Source of the DNA: Natrinema halophilum
GTDB taxonomy: Archaea > Halobacteriota > Halobacteria > Halobacteriales > Natrialbaceae
DNA length: 64,000 bases
Assembly (NCBI RefSeq): GCF_013402815.2
Contig: NZ_CP058601.1
Coordinates: forward strand, 1 to 64,000
Direction: 5' to 3'
Below, in pieces: positions 5,669-14,601 of the stretch (positions are counted from its first letter, which is position 1; every line of letters begins with the position of its first letter). A model generated the notes under the pieces. That model was not told where the DNA came from, made no database searches, and saw only the letters and a program-made list of their open reading frames with translations. A program made the position numbers and the translations under genes.

Positions 5669-5684
5669 AATATTGTTATATATC
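5669..5684 (+). promoter_or_regulatory. Promoter element shared with the paralog at 8717
   Basis: The sequence aatattgttatatatc is nearly matched by aatactgttatatcgc at 8674-8689. In both cases the TGTTATA core ends exactly 32 bases before the ATG of a permuted binding protein. It probably contains the TATA box; the extended match may include a regulator site. Confidence 0.5.
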
Positions 5685-5711: not shown

Positions 5712-7532
5712 ATGAATTGGAACCCCTCTCCCTCCGAGAACCGCGTTAGCAGGCGCTCGGTGCTCGCTGGCGGCGCTGCAGGCGCCGCGATCACGACGAG
5801 CGGCTGCATCGATAGCGTTCGAAGCGTCGTAAACCACCGCGGAAGTAACAGACTCTCCCTCTCAATCGCCACTGTCCCCGCGGACGCAGACAGACAGAAC
5901 GTACGGATCGCACGTCGACTCGAGGAGAACCTCGAAAAGGTCGGGATCGAAGTCTCACTGGATATGCGGTCGCGATCGGAACTGCTGAAAGCAGTGTTGA
6001 TCGACCACGACTTCGATCTCTACGTCGGTCTCCACCCGGCTGGCTACGATCCTGACTTCCTCTATGAGACTCTCCACTCTACGTACGCCAGCGAAGCAGG
6101 GTGGCAAAATCCGTTTGGGTTCACCGATCAGGCGTTCTTCGACACTCATCTCGAGAAACAGCGTCGAGCCACCGGCGAAAAACGCACACGAGAAATCAAA
6201 AACATCTTGAGAGGACTCACACAGGAGAAAGTGCTCGAACCGATCTGCTTCCCTGACGAGTATCGCGTCGCCAGGTCGGATCGATTTACGGGTTGGAACG
6301 AGGGGAATCTCGCGACACGACACGGTTATCTGGGTCTCGAGCCGGCCGAGGACGTCGATCAACTCCACGCGCTCGTAACCAGCAGCCGCATCACGAAGAA
6401 TCTCAACCCACTCACAGCGACGTTTCGAAAGCGGGGAACGATCATCGGCCTACTGTATGATTCGCTGGGGACTGTCCACGACGACGACGTCAAGCCGTGG
6501 CTAGCGGAATCGTGGGAAATACCCAGTGAGCCGGCGACTGGCGAGGAATCGGCGAACGACCAGCAAGCGACGGATGGCGAAGAGACGCTGCAGACGATGT
6601 CCGTCACGCTCCGAAAGGGTTGTCAGTTCCACGATGGTGAGCTTGTGACTGCCGACGACGTCGCGTTCACCTATCGATTCCTTGATGATACGTCATTGGG
6701 GCGAGCGCCTCTCAAATCACCAGCGCCGCAGTATCAGGGTCAGGTCGACGTTGTCGACGGCGTCACGACGAACGGCGACTACGAGCTTACCATGACGGTA
6801 ACTGGCGGTCGAGAGCCATGCAAACGTGCCCTGACAGTACCGATCTTGCCCGAGCACGTGTGGCGCAAGCGGGTCAACGAACACGCTCTCGACGGCGAGT
6901 TCACTGCGTCGCAGGGCCGGTGGAGCGCCGTCACCACGAACAACGTTCCGCCTGTTGGCAGCGGCCCCTTCCAGTTCGATAGTCGCACCGAGGACGAATC
7001 GCTTACTCTCCGGCGGTTCGACAATCACTTCACCCACCGGGACGACGTCAAATTGCCAGCGCCGACCGTCGCCGAACTGCGGTTCAGTGTCGATCCGGGC
7101 AGCGTCTCGTCGATTGGACGCATTCAAGACGGTGGGGCGGATGTAACGGCTACGATGCTCGGCGCCCATTCGCTGGCCGCAATGAGCGACTCGCCGAATG
7201 TCGAGCAACTGAAGTCCAAGTCACGGATGTTCTATCATGTCGGGTTCAACGTTCGTAATGCGCCGTTCAGCAATTCCTATTTCCGCCGAGCGATCACACA
7301 GTTGCTGGATAAAAAAGCGATCGTCGAGGACGTGTTCTACGAAAACGCGACACCAACTGCGACACCGGTTTCCGGTGACTGGGTCCCCGCGGATCTCGAA
7401 TGGAACGGTGAAGATCCGGTAACGCCGTTCGTCGGTTCGAACGGAACGCTCAACGTCGAAGCAGCGAAAAAGGCGTTCGAGCGGGCAGGGTTCCGTTACG
7501 ATGATAACGGAAGACTGCTTGGAGGATATTAG
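5712..7532 (+). CDS. Tat lipoprotein: circularly permuted peptide-binding (SBP_bac_5) protein, copy 1
   Basis: This 606-aa protein carries a Tat lipoprotein signal (RR at 14-15, lipobox TSGC, C32), so it should be membrane-anchored outside the cell. The fold is that of OppA/DppA-type solute-binding proteins, in an unusual order. Residues about 47-210 correspond to the usual C-terminal part (KVGIEVSL, DHDFDLYVGL, PDFLYETLHS, FTGWNEG). Residues about 220-606 then correspond to the usual N-terminal and middle parts (NLNPLTA, LLYDSLG, WLAESWEI, FHDGELVTADDVAFTY, GSGPF). The protein ends at FRYDDNGRLL, the point where canonical members continue into the block found here at the start. Five bases separate it from the PAP2 gene. 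No permease or ATPase gene lies nearby. The ligand is unknown. Confidence 0.88.
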   Translation: MNWNPSPSENRVSRRSVLAGGAAGAAITTSGCIDSVRSVVNHRGSNRLSLSIATVPADADRQNVRIARRLEENLEKVGIEVSLDMRSRSELLKAVLIDHDFDLYVGLHPAGYDPDFLYETLHSTYASEAGWQNPFGFTDQAFFDTHLEKQRRATGEKRTREIKNILRGLTQEKVLEPICFPDEYRVARSDRFTGWNEGNLATRHGYLGLEPAEDVDQLHALVTSSRITKNLNPLTATFRKRGTIIGLLYDSLGTVHDDDVKPWLAESWEIPSEPATGEESANDQQATDGEETLQTMSVTLRKGCQFHDGELVTADDVAFTYRFLDDTSLGRAPLKSPAPQYQGQVDVVDGVTTNGDYELTMTVTGGREPCKRALTVPILPEHVWRKRVNEHALDGEFTASQGRWSAVTTNNVPPVGSGPFQFDSRTEDESLTLRRFDNHFTHRDDVKLPAPTVAELRFSVDPGSVSSIGRIQDGGADVTATMLGAHSLAAMSDSPNVEQLKSKSRMFYHVGFNVRNAPFSNSYFRRAITQLLDKKAIVEDVFYENATPTATPVSGDWVPADLEWNGEDPVTPFVGSNGTLNVEAAKKAFERAGFRYDDNGRLLGGY

Positions 7533-7537
7533 AAGCG

Positions 7538-8389
7538 ATGCTCGCCGAGGTGCTGACTCAGCTCGTCGCCGTTATCTTGATTTTGCTGCCGATTTCGATA
7601 GCCGTCTTTATCGGCCGCAAACGTCTTGCTCAAACGCGATCTGAATGGCGAAGCAGACTGCAGACCGCTGCACCGGTGATCGTCGTACTGTTGATCGTGT
7701 TGCTGATCAACCGGGTCGCCAGGCAGACGGCGCCGGATCTCTCCCGGGAGATCGGAATTCATCTGACTTCGACCTTCTACAACATCGAAGGAGAATTTAT
7801 TCTGATCTTCCGGACGATCCAGACAGCGGAGACGACGGCGTATTTTTCGTCGATCTACGTCTATGGATATACGTTTCTGCTGATATTCCCCATTATCGCG
7901 TATTTCACTCTCTCGGATACTCGGATCTTTCGTCGGCTGTTGACGGCATACGCCCTTAACTACGCGATCGGATTGGTGCTGTATATCCTCGTAATCGCGT
8001 ACGGTCCTCGGAATCTGATGCCTGCCGAACTGATGGAACGAATGTTATACGATACAAACCCACAATATCAGTATCTCACGCGGGAAGTCAACACGAACAC
8101 CAACGTTTTTCCGTCGTTGCACACGTCGCTCTCTGCAACCGTCGCCACGTTCGCGTGGATAACTCGCTCGAAATTCCCGAAGTGGTTTCCCGTCGCAGTA
8201 ATCCTGGCAGCAAGCGTCGCAATATCGACGATGTACCTCGGGATTCACTGGGGGATCGACGTCACCGCTGGCTTGGTGCTTGCTGCCCTTTGTGTGGATC
8301 TTTCCGACCGGCTCGTCGACCGCTGGTCCGTCGCAGAACTGTTCGACCAGTACGGTGATCGAATTCCGTGGAAGCAAGAACACGAGTAA
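7538..8389 (+). CDS. PAP2-superfamily membrane phosphatase
   Basis: This 283-aa polytopic protein has hydrophobic segments near residues 3-26, 45-62, 105-128, 135-165 and 200-260. The PAP2 active-site motifs are VFPSLHTS (P192-H195, motif 2) and STMYLGIHWGID (H237, D241, motif 3). The classic KxxxxxxRP motif 1 is not obvious, as in the PAP2_3/Aur1-like subgroup. Such enzymes dephosphorylate lipid or isoprenoid phosphates or transfer phospho-headgroups, usually with an outward-facing active site. It starts 5 bases after copy 1 of the permuted binding proteins and is followed by copy 2, so it is likely co-transcribed with the first. Substrate unknown. Confidence 0.85.
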   Translation: MLAEVLTQLVAVILILLPISIAVFIGRKRLAQTRSEWRSRLQTAAPVIVVLLIVLLINRVARQTAPDLSREIGIHLTSTFYNIEGEFILIFRTIQTAETTAYFSSIYVYGYTFLLIFPIIAYFTLSDTRIFRRLLTAYALNYAIGLVLYILVIAYGPRNLMPAELMERMLYDTNPQYQYLTREVNTNTNVFPSLHTSLSATVATFAWITRSKFPKWFPVAVILAASVAISTMYLGIHWGIDVTAGLVLAALCVDLSDRLVDRWSVAELFDQYGDRIPWKQEHE

Positions 8390-8716
8390 CCAGGTCGCTT
8401 GCGGTTTTGCCCGGTCACTACCTTCGGAACGGATGGTTGACTGCCGTCATATGCCTCGCCATCCGCGGTTCTGAACGGCGTCGCAGTCTCGGCATCGAAC
8501 TGGTTCCCTGTGTCCGTTCGAACGCCACAACTCGCCTCGACGGAGCTGACACACCGGCTCGAATACGTCAAAGCGAAACTGAGCTCGCGGTTCAAGTACC
8601 CGGGTGGATACCGGACGACCGCACCGTTTGCGAGGATCGATTGTGCCGTTACCCCGCGGACTCCCGATAACATAATACTGTTATATCGCGGCAGATTACT
8701 GTGGCAGACGTACAAG
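8390..8716 (+). other. Intergenic region upstream of the second permuted binding protein
   Basis: There are 327 bases between the PAP2 stop and the next ATG. A frame open from a GTG at 8510 runs into the downstream gene, but its first 69 residues do not resemble anything and precede an otherwise standard Tat signal, so I treat them as noncoding. The promoter element at 8674-8689 is the only recognisable signal. Confidence 0.5.
8674..8689 (+). promoter_or_regulatory. Promoter element shared with the paralog at 5712
   Basis: aatactgttatatcgc closely matches the element at 5669-5684. Its TGTTATA core ends 32 bases before the ATG at 8717, the same distance as in the first copy. Confidence 0.5.
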
Positions 8717-10495
8717 ATGAACGGACGACGGGCTGCCCCCAATCGGAGCAACCGCAACACTGGCGGCAGTAGCGTCAGCCGTCGTGCCATGCTGGCGGCG
8801 ACGACCGGAGTGACAGTCTCGACCAGCGGGTGTGTTAATCGCCTCCGGGATCTCGTGACCCGGAACAACATCAAACAACTCTCGTTGACGATTACCACGC
8901 TCCCCGCAGACAGCGACAGGGAGAGCATTCGAATTGCAAACGAACTCGAACGTATCTTCAAGACGGTCGGGATAGACGTTTCCTTCGACGTTCGATCTGG
9001 TATCGATTTCCTCCAGACCGTTCTTTACGACCACGACTTCGACGTCTGCATCGGTCGTCACCCGGGCGGGACCGACCCGGATTTCCTCTATCAGGCGTTG
9101 CACTCGCTGTACGCCGACGAATCCGGCTGGCAAAACCCCTTCGGGTTCACCAATTTAACCGTTGATGCCTTTCTCGAGAAACAACGCACCGCCGAAGGGG
9201 CGGATCGTCGCGAAGCGGTCACGGACGCACTCGAAACGATAGCGACCGTCCAGCCGTTCGTTCCGATCTGTATCCCAGAGGAGCACCGGATGGTGAGAAG
9301 CGACCGGTTCGACGGTTGGGATGAGGGCCACCTCGCGACGCGACGCGGATATCTCGGCCTCGAACCGGCCGAAAGCGTCGAGACGCTACGTGCGATTAAT
9401 ACGGATGCCAGACCGACGGACAACTTAAACCCCCTCGCTATCAGCCACCGGGGCCGTGGAACGTTCACTGAATTACTATACGACTCGCTGGCGACCGACG
9501 ACCCTGACGGAGACGTTCAGCCGTGGCTCGCTGAGTCGTGGGAGTGGGATGGACGGACGGCAGACGTCCACCTCCGCGACTGGTGTGAGTTCCACGACGG
9601 GGAGACGATATCCGCAACCGACGTCGAGTTCACCTACCAGTTCCTGAAGGACATGTCCCTCGGGAATCACGAAGTGGAGACGCCGGCCCCTCGGTATCGA
9701 GGACAGGTTGAAGCCATCGAAACGGTCGAAGTGAGAGGTCCCACTCGCCTGGAGATAACGGTCGACACCAGTCCGGAAGTCGGCGAACGGGCCTTTCTCG
9801 TCCCCATTCTTCCCGCTCACGTCTGGCAAGAGCGGGCTGCAGACCCGAACGGGCCGGTCGGCGTAAGCCTCGCCCAGGGAACCACGAAAGCGGTCGTTAC
9901 GAACAACGTTCCGCCGATTGGAAGTGGTCCCTATCAGTTTGCGAGTCGTACAGAAGGTGATCAGCTCACGTTCGAACGATACGATTCACACTTCACCCGT
10001 CGGGCCGGCGTCGATCTCCCGGAACCGACTGTCGACGAGCTTACCGTCCAGATCACCCCGAGCAGCAAGACTGCTATCCGCGCCGTCGAAAACGACGTCG
10101 CCGACGTAACGAGTACGTCACTCGAGTCCAACGTCATCGATACTATCCACGATTCCAGCGACAGCCAGTTACTCGAGTCTCCGTCGTGGACGTTTTACTT
10201 CCTGGGATTCAACGCGCGCAAGGCCCCGTTTAGCAATCCACGATTTCGACGAGTCCTTGCACGCTTGATCGACAAGGAGTGGCTGGTTGAGAAGGTGTTC
10301 TACGGAAATGCACGACCCGTCGCGACGCCGGTCACCGAGCAGTGGGTCCCCAAAAGCCTCGAGTGGCAGGGGGACGATCCCGAAACACCGTTTCTTGGGA
10401 CAGATGGCGAAGTCAACGTAAGCGCGGCGCGGGCCGCATTCGAGGCAGCCGGATTCCGCTACGACGAACAGGAACGGCTCCGTGTGAGACAGTGA
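8717..10495 (+). CDS. Tat lipoprotein: circularly permuted peptide-binding (SBP_bac_5) protein, copy 2
   Basis: This 592-aa paralog of the 5712 gene has the same order of parts. A Tat lipoprotein signal (RR at 22-23, TSGC with C39) is followed by the normally C-terminal block (LSLTITTLPAD, DHDFDVCIGRH, TDPDFLYQALHS, FDGWDEG). The normally N-terminal part comes next (NLNPLAI, LLYDSLA, WLAESWEW, FHDGETISATDVEFTY, PPIGSGPY), and the protein ends at FRYDEQERLRVRQ. The start at ATG 8717 is chosen because it gives a normal Tat n-region and a TATA-like box at the same spacing as in copy 1. The duplication spans the whole protein, but the two are clearly diverged, so it is not recent. Expected location is the outer face of the membrane. 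Confidence 0.88.
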   Translation: MNGRRAAPNRSNRNTGGSSVSRRAMLAATTGVTVSTSGCVNRLRDLVTRNNIKQLSLTITTLPADSDRESIRIANELERIFKTVGIDVSFDVRSGIDFLQTVLYDHDFDVCIGRHPGGTDPDFLYQALHSLYADESGWQNPFGFTNLTVDAFLEKQRTAEGADRREAVTDALETIATVQPFVPICIPEEHRMVRSDRFDGWDEGHLATRRGYLGLEPAESVETLRAINTDARPTDNLNPLAISHRGRGTFTELLYDSLATDDPDGDVQPWLAESWEWDGRTADVHLRDWCEFHDGETISATDVEFTYQFLKDMSLGNHEVETPAPRYRGQVEAIETVEVRGPTRLEITVDTSPEVGERAFLVPILPAHVWQERAADPNGPVGVSLAQGTTKAVVTNNVPPIGSGPYQFASRTEGDQLTFERYDSHFTRRAGVDLPEPTVDELTVQITPSSKTAIRAVENDVADVTSTSLESNVIDTIHDSSDSQLLESPSWTFYFLGFNARKAPFSNPRFRRVLARLIDKEWLVEKVFYGNARPVATPVTEQWVPKSLEWQGDDPETPFLGTDGEVNVSAARAAFEAAGFRYDEQERLRVRQ

Positions 10496-13314: not shown

Positions 13315-14601
13315 ATGGAGGTCCGTCGGACCGTCCCCGTCAAACTCGACGTGGCCGACAGCGACGCTGACTTCCTCCACGAAACCATTTCTGAGTTCCT
13401 GTGGGCCGCTAACTACGTCGTAGACCACGCGTGGCAAGGCGAATACAAGACCACGAGTAAAGCCGAACTCCAACGCGAAACCTACGACGACGTGCGGGCA
13501 GAGACGCAACTGCAAGCGAATCTCGTCCAGAACGCTCGCAACAAGGCCGCCGACGCCGTACAGAGCGCCGTCGCTCGCTGGAAGCAAGGTGACTGCGCGG
13601 GGAAACCGCATTTCACAGCCCCGACGCTCGTCTACGACAAGCGGTGTGCGACGTTCACCGACGATCACGCCACGCTCTCAACTGTTGAGGGACGTATCAC
13701 CGCCGAATACGTCCTTCCCGACGGGAGTCGAGAGACGCCTCACTCGGAATACCTGTACAATGACGACTACGAAGTGACTGGTGCGGAACTGCACTACCGC
13801 GACGGGGAGTTCTACCTACACATCCGAACAAAGGCGGATGTGGAGTCTGAGATTGCCGACGACGGCAACGCCGGGCACAGCACAGTCCTCGGCGTTGACC
13901 TCGGCATCGAAAACATCGCCGTCACGTCCACGGGCGCGTTCTGGAACGGGTCGGAGTTGAACCATTGGCATCGTGAGTTCGAGAAGCGACGTGGGTCGCT
14001 TCAACAGCATGGAACGCGGGCCGCCCACGAAACCATCCAGTCGGTCGGACGCACTGAGACGGGGCGCTACAACCACTTCTTACACACCGTCTCGAAAGAA
14101 CTCGTCGCGGAAGCCATCGAAAACGGCTGTGACGTAATTGCGTTCGAGAACCTGACGGGGATTCGTCAGCGGATGCCTCGCGCCAAGAAGTTCCACGCAT
14201 GGGCGTTCCGACGGCTATTCGAGTACGTCGGGTATAAGGCTGAGGGAGTCGGTATCTCGGTCGAACAGGTGAGTCCCGCGTACACCAGCCAGCGATGTTC
14301 TAAGTGCGGGTTCACCCACGAGGACAACCGTCCAACCTCGGACGGACAGGACGTATTCGAGTGCCTGAAGTGCAACTACTCACCCCACGCGGACTACAAC
14401 GCAGCGAAGAACATCGGTCTGAAGCATCTCCGCTCGGCGCAAAAGTCGTCGGGCGGAGGCGCGCCCGTAAACGTGCGCTTGAATCGCGGGACGTTGAACG
14501 TGAATGGCGAGTACGAGCCTGCCGCCGACGGCGGCCAGAACGGGAGTCCACGCGAAAGCCTCACCCTCAACGAAGCGAACGGCGTCGCCGTGAGCGAGTA
14601 G
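13315..14601 (+). CDS. tnpB: TnpB, RNA-guided endonuclease of an IS1341-type element
   Basis: This 428-aa protein has the N-terminal OrfB helix-turn-helix region ([13 protein letters not shown]), a beta-barrel segment and a split RuvC-like nuclease. The catalytic residues are D195 (GVDLGIEN), E278 (AFENLTGIR) and D360 (HADYNAAKN), with a zinc ribbon at C328/C331 and C350/C353 between the last two. All key residues are present and the frame is intact, so the protein could be active. TnpB uses an RNA from the element's right end to cleave DNA next to a short motif. A C-terminal tail of about 60 residues after the RuvC part overlaps the expected guide-RNA scaffold. No tnpA is nearby. Confidence 0.95.

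Follow-up and report, generated by a model that had tools for sequence, protein, structure and literature searches.

A conserved gene pair of a circularly permuted solute-binding lipoprotein and an AUR1-like PAP2 membrane enzyme in haloarchaea

The locus and its proteins

We report on three consecutive genes in a stretch of 64,000 nucleotides from the haloarchaeon Natrinema halophilum (contig NZ_CP058601.1, positions 1 to 64,000 of the forward strand; this whole stretch is called the window), namely two genes for solute-binding proteins (SBPs) of family 5, SBP1 and SBP2, and between them a gene for a membrane enzyme of the PAP2 type (Table 1). A first-pass annotation, made by a model from the sequence alone, had drawn attention to this order, and the three open reading frames (ORFs) are indeed present, all rightward, with 5 bases between SBP1 and the PAP2 gene; the ORF listed for SBP2 opens earlier, at GTG 8510, and its natural start is ATG 8717. 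That genes of an ATP-binding cassette (ABC) transporter are missing from the locus was likewise borne out: no ABC permease gene was found within the window, and the nearest BPD_transp_1 permease of this genome lies beyond it, at C1:209,475.

Table 1. Features of the locus, in coordinates of the window
Feature	Position	Strand	Evidence
SBP1, circularly permuted family-5 solute-binding lipoprotein, 606 aa	5712..7532	+	Pfam SBP_bac_5, rotation test, AlphaFold model
Tat-type (twin-arginine translocation) signal of SBP1, with RR at residues 14-15, and its lipobox TSGC with Cys32	5712..5807	+	Sequence
Ancestral C-terminal segment, now N-terminal (SBP1 residues 45-202)	5844..6317	+	Segment hidden Markov model (HMM) order test; OppA/DppA/NikA alignment
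Ancestral N-terminal segment, now C-terminal (SBP1 residues 212-606)	6345..7529	+	Pfam match, segment HMM order test, structural matches
PAP2_3-type (AUR1/IPC-synthase-like) membrane phosphatase or phosphotransferase, 283 aa	7538..8389	+	PF14378, PF01569, AlphaFold, structural matches
PAP2 motif-1 arginine R158 (GPRN)	8009..8011	+	Invariant in 46 homologs
PAP2 catalytic His195 (NVFPSLH motif)	8120..8122	+	Invariant in 46 homologs
PAP2 catalytic His237 and Asp241 (motif 3)	8246..8260	+	Invariant in 46 homologs
SBP2, second permuted family-5 SBP lipoprotein, 592 aa, from tandem SBP-PAP2 duplication	8717..10495	+	
TATA-like element TTATATAT, about 32 bp 5' of SBP1 start	5676..5683	+	Read in sequence; promoter role inferred
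TATA-like element, about 33 bp 5' of SBP2 start	8681..8686	+	Read in sequence; promoter role inferred

Both binding proteins are matched by SBP_bac_5 (PF00496) far above the gathering cut-off (159.7 and 163 bits versus 32.4; E 1.4e-46 for SBP1 residues 260-600), and these matches lie in the C-terminal halves and cover only positions 2-284 of the 368 in the profile. When the SBP1 sequence was rotated, one continuous match over profile positions 2-361 was obtained, with 172.7 bits versus 159.7 for the native order, and the rotated protein became collinear with family-5 chains in PDB, e.g., 7ebm 64-507. Among the structural matches listed for the AlphaFold model of SBP1 (predicted local distance difference test, pLDDT, 88.5), the alignments open at model residue 194-217, close to the beginning of the solved chain, and end at model residue 596-606, at about chain residue 326-400. 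The canonical linear order of family 5 is thus not followed, because the ancestral C-terminal segment comes before the N-terminal one, and the circular permutation of the window SBPs, which the first-pass annotation had noticed, is real.

SBP1 is predicted by motif to be a Tat lipoprotein, and in a simple motif scan RR or KR was found ahead of the lipobox in 126 of the 134 SBP homologs. A near-invariant motif, GWQNPFG, lies in the pocket region at SBP1 residues 130-136; when searched in a slightly relaxed form, it was present in 148/152 members of the clade linked to PAP2 versus 6/52 other SBPs tested, and this near-exclusive occurrence suggests one conserved SBP ligand. Asp419 of OppA and Asp408 of DppA are the aspartate that binds the N-terminal amine of the peptide. 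The position aligned to them is Ala110 in SBP1 and is Asp in 3/73 homologs, and because this residue is not conserved, an OppA-like peptide pocket is unlikely in the PAP2-linked SBPs. These proteins therefore resemble OppA, DppA and NikA in fold and in the SBP_bac_5 profile, but differ from them in the permutation of the window SBPs, in having no permease or ATPase genes alongside and in the loss of conservation at the peptide-amine aspartate.

The PAP2 protein is matched by PAP2_3 (PF14378; E 2.2e-16, 60.6 bits versus a cut-off of 27) and by PF01569 (5.3e-12). The best structural match of its AlphaFold model (pLDDT 90.7) is an inositol phosphorylceramide (IPC) synthase (9vj4; Z 18.1, 216 residues aligned, 3.1 A), followed by Aur1 (9ivc; Z 16.8), and after these come LpxE, SMSr (Z 14.2) and PgpB (12.5). 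Judging from these models and profiles, we suggest that the protein is a lipid phosphatase or phosphotransferase. The AUR1/IPC synthase group provides the closest solved folds and shares the PAP2_3 profile and the catalytic residues, although the identity in the structural alignment is 14% and the gene partner here is an SBP, not Kei1. The helices of the model together with the charges of the loops (loops 1 and 5 are positive, the catalytic loops are not) predict that the catalytic loops lie outside, and the earlier suggestion of an outward-facing active site for lipid phosphate with a lipoprotein partner is consistent with the sequence.

The SBP-PAP2 pair across the class Halobacteria

In 116 neighbourhoods we found 134 full-length permuted SBP genes, 114 of which are directly followed by a same-strand PAP2 gene; at first loci, this was the case for 82 of 83. 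The gaps are mostly -4, -1 or 3-11 bp, stop and start codons most often overlapping, and the genes flanking the pair vary widely over many unrelated contexts. Among 242 haloarchaeal genomes, the SBP was detected at E<=1e-30 in 155, and the PAP2 protein at E<=1e-60 in exactly the same 155, the two lists having been matched by eye. The pairing is thus conserved across the class Halobacteria. Outside it, no SBP lay beside a PAP2 gene in methanogens among the 11 loci fetched, and no bacterial SBP-PAP2 pair was seen in plasmid records, where the two annotated rhizobial matches were opp operons.

The expectation that PAP2 always accompanies a permuted SBP held for these 114 genes, and it failed for second tandem copies (in the window's genus and in a few Natrialbaceae besides) and for a few other loci, including two SBPs of a different clade that belong to opp operons (L176_15 and L177_2). 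Many Natrialbaceae carry the tandem [SBP-PAP2][SBP-PAP2], and therefore the window arrangement, which has no PAP2 gene directly after SBP2, is a tandem duplication without the second PAP2. The bracketing of the PAP2 gene by two binding proteins is accordingly rejected as the functional arrangement; the real unit is the SBP-PAP2 pair. The second tandem PAP2 is missing from the window's genus, including the homologous Natrinema loci, with the second SBP kept intact. A second PAP2 lineage of Natrialbaceae is linked to an SBP in L236, L237 and L240 and is free of one in the window's genome (L187).

The absence of ABC subunits beside the homologs, the other point in the proposed neighbourhood survey, was confirmed: none of the PAP2-linked SBPs in 109 neighbourhoods stands at the head of an opp operon. 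Apart from two loci (L176 and L177, of genomes G181 and G197) where an opp operon with its own permuted SBP is convergent to the pair, permeases were found within 6 kb at one of the 109 loci (L144), where they and the pair are not joined in a single co-directional operon, and an ATPase gene within 3 kb at two. For the PAP2-linked clade, therefore, homologs are not regularly embedded in opp/dpp operons, nor is the PAP2 linkage restricted to a single genome.

A third gene, here called c4, codes for a membrane protein some 420 aa long and was found in 29 neighbourhoods, mostly directly upstream of the pair and co-directional with it. It is present in 145/155 SBP-positive genomes versus 4/87 of the others (p 7e-48 by Fisher test), and it tracks the SBP within most genera of mixed SBP status, the exceptions being g19 and one genome of g33. 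In the Natrialbaceae examined c4 is unlinked, as in the window's genome, where it lies at C1:3,360,810-3,362,267 (L263:6790-8271). Because SBP, PAP2 and c4 appear and vanish together across species, the distribution points to an undescribed haloarchaeal cell-surface system for lipid processing, composed of these three proteins. We have also examined whether c4 can be identified as LssY_C (PF14067), a domain found together with PAP2 and DedA in bacteria. This was the best Pfam lead for the ortholog in the window's genome (20.5 bits, E 3.8e-4, cut-off 25), and a second ortholog in the window's genus is also below threshold (16.2 bits); none of the 21 pair-linked c4 members gave an LssY_C match. 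The identification was not adopted, and c4 is called no more than weakly LssY_C-like here.

Other neighbours are occasional. A PMT_2-like (GT-C-like) membrane glycosyltransferase and an arylsulfotransferase-like (ASST) protein adjoin the pair in 16-20 loci and in several orientations (e.g., L117, L118, L119, L130 and L147), and an ASST gene is also beside c4 in L268. Since only 42/242 genomes carry the glycosyltransferase, it is an optional neighbour.

Permutation and transport

The first-pass annotation had taken the permutation as a sign that the binding proteins do not serve import. We tried this argument and rejected it, because permuted SBPs of other lineages are found in complete opp-type operons. 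In the window's genome itself, one such operon (L183:2593-8859; C1:3,919,592 onward) opens with a second kind of permuted SBP and continues with two permeases and two ATPases. Permuted family-5 SBPs are likewise encoded on rhizobial plasmids (L114, L115 and L116); the annotated ones head opp operons adjoining hydantoinase/oxoprolinase genes, and L114 (Nitratireductor, Rhizobiales) is cut at the same Pfam position, at about 284/285 of the profile. The L183 and L114 proteins share the permuted segment order and the SBP_bac_5 family with the window SBPs, but differ from them in that two permeases and two ATPases are encoded alongside, and a clade uniting all permuted SBPs is rejected.

In our phylogeny, a quick tree with long branches, the PAP2-linked permuted SBPs form one clade (support 99.7), and a single clade of all permuted SBPs was rejected by the approximately unbiased (AU) test (p 0.0002). 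Since homologs of the L183 protein from other haloarchaea, about 45-50% identical to it, are unpermuted (L246-L250), the permutation, judged from these sequences, has arisen, or has been reversed, more than once. Circular permutation of family-5 SBPs is thus recurrent and compatible with transport. An unpermuted orphan SBP of family 5 was also noted in the window's genome (L181:4873-6459); it has no adjacent permease and lies beside a membrane protein that, judged from its translation, is APC-like.

Proposed role of the pair and its neighbours

SBP-fold lipoproteins that act without a transporter are known from mycobacteria: LpqZ and FecB bind the envelope glycosyltransferases AftA and AftB, respectively (PMC12802301), and LpqW steers the synthesis of phosphatidylinositol mannosides (PIM) and lipomannan (PMC3229680). 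The haloarchaeal SBP resembles these three in being an SBP-fold lipoprotein, with a lipobox in most homologs, that has no ABC transporter of its own, and the structural matches of the SBP1 model include LpqW (2grv; Z 19.5). LpqW is, however, not permuted, model residues 214-606 of SBP1 aligning to 2grv 25-386. Whereas the mycobacterial proteins are tied to extracytoplasmic enzymes of envelope lipids or glycans (PMC3229680, PMC12802301), the tie here consists of gene linkage and co-distribution with PAP2; and the mycobacterial partners are glycosyltransferases, whereas the partner here is a PAP2 enzyme, in a tight, conserved and archaeal gene pair.

From this precedent, together with the conserved pairing without adjacent ABC genes, the co-distribution of SBP, PAP2 and c4, the fold and invariant catalytic residues of PAP2, the lipoprotein motifs of the SBP and its pocket-region motif, we consider the chances about even that the orphan SBP has been repurposed as an extracellular partner or substrate presenter of the AUR1-like PAP2 enzyme. 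The SBP would no longer serve a dedicated importer and, anchored on the outer side of the membrane, would bind one particular ligand, which is probably the head group of a lipid or the donor of that group; in contact with the enzyme, it would either present this ligand to the outward phosphatase/phosphotransferase site or regulate PAP2 through it, the action presumably running from binding protein to enzyme. The c4 membrane protein would be the third member, and in some lineages the GT-C-like glycosyltransferase and the arylsulfotransferase-like protein would join. A wider scheme, in which permuted orphan SBP, AUR1-like phosphotransferase and LssY_C-like protein (with GT-C and sulfotransferase-like proteins in some lineages) form an envelope machine not described before that remodels a haloarchaeal lipid, or a glycan linked to a lipid, at the outer face, can be put forward only tentatively. 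In such a machine the permutation may shift the lipid anchor and the pocket with respect to the membrane and thereby turn the SBP towards the enzyme rather than towards a permease. As a whole, the interpretation given by the first-pass annotation is partly supported, ligand sensing or presentation being its conjectural part.

Several observations weigh against a partnership of this kind. Besides the tandem copies and the two SBPs in opp operons, five SBP loci (L127, L136 and L170-L172) have no adjacent PAP2; in three of them, which belong to family f7 (L170, L171 and L172), a small dodecin-like gene follows the SBP instead. One of these cases speaks in favour of the system all the same, as G033, the f7 genome with L170, has its PAP2 gene elsewhere, next to c4 (L274). 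The co-distribution depends partly on phylogeny, which the Fisher test ignores. The pocket region of the SBP is conserved, whereas the mycobacterial LpqZ and FecB conserve the interface rather than the pocket. In addition, SBPs can use a distant transporter, as a single DppBCDF serves DppA1-A5 in Pseudomonas aeruginosa (PMC4206461).

This last point leads to the main rival, scavenging, in which PAP2 would dephosphorylate an organophosphate or a lipid phosphate outside the cell, and the product would be caught by the SBP and passed to an Opp-type transporter encoded elsewhere. Opp-type operons are indeed present elsewhere in the window's genome, an opp operon that includes a permuted SBP is convergent to the pair in G181 and G197, and the pocket-region motif suggests a real ligand. 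We nevertheless regard it as rather unlikely: no ABC gene travels with the pair, permuted SBPs resembling the opp-linked one of L183 give full-length matches in a few tens of the 242 genomes at most, versus 155 for the pair, and AUR1-like enzymes act on lipids, not on soluble phosphates. The weak LssY_C matches of c4 orthologs and the glycosyltransferase and arylsulfotransferase-like genes adjoining the pair would also fit recycling of polyprenyl (dolichyl) phosphate, in which PAP2 would dephosphorylate the glycan carrier once transfer is complete, and the released glycan or carrier would be chaperoned or sensed by the SBP. Absence from 87 of the 242 haloarchaeal genomes, however, makes the system too patchy for an essential step of carrier recycling, and with the glycosyltransferase also confined to a minority of genomes this reading seems improbable. 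Finally, short intergenic gaps alone suggest only co-transcription, and the two genes might share an operon merely through their history, with no coupling of function; the pairing, however, holds across many families and flanking contexts, the genomes that have the SBP are the ones that have PAP2, and c4 shows the same distribution even though it is unlinked in the Natrialbaceae examined, so that such an accident is very hard to credit.

If the repurposing of the SBP is true, binding proteins have been recruited to work with envelope enzymes not only in mycobacteria but also in archaea, and the three genes offer an entry point to a surface-lipid chemistry of haloarchaea that has not yet been described. 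A literature search found no description of circular permutation in this SBP family or of an SBP-PAP2 pair, though such papers may exist. In annotated plasmid records the homologs are labelled 'ABC transporter substrate-binding protein', and this label is probably misleading for a gene that clearly more than half of the haloarchaeal genomes sampled here carry.

As to expression in the window, the SBP1 transcript is probably leaderless, and SBP2 probably has its own promoter, because a TATA-like element precedes its start. Further along, at 13315-14601, an ORF resembles a TnpB-type protein of the IS200/IS605 group, with paired CxxC motifs, as judged from its translation.

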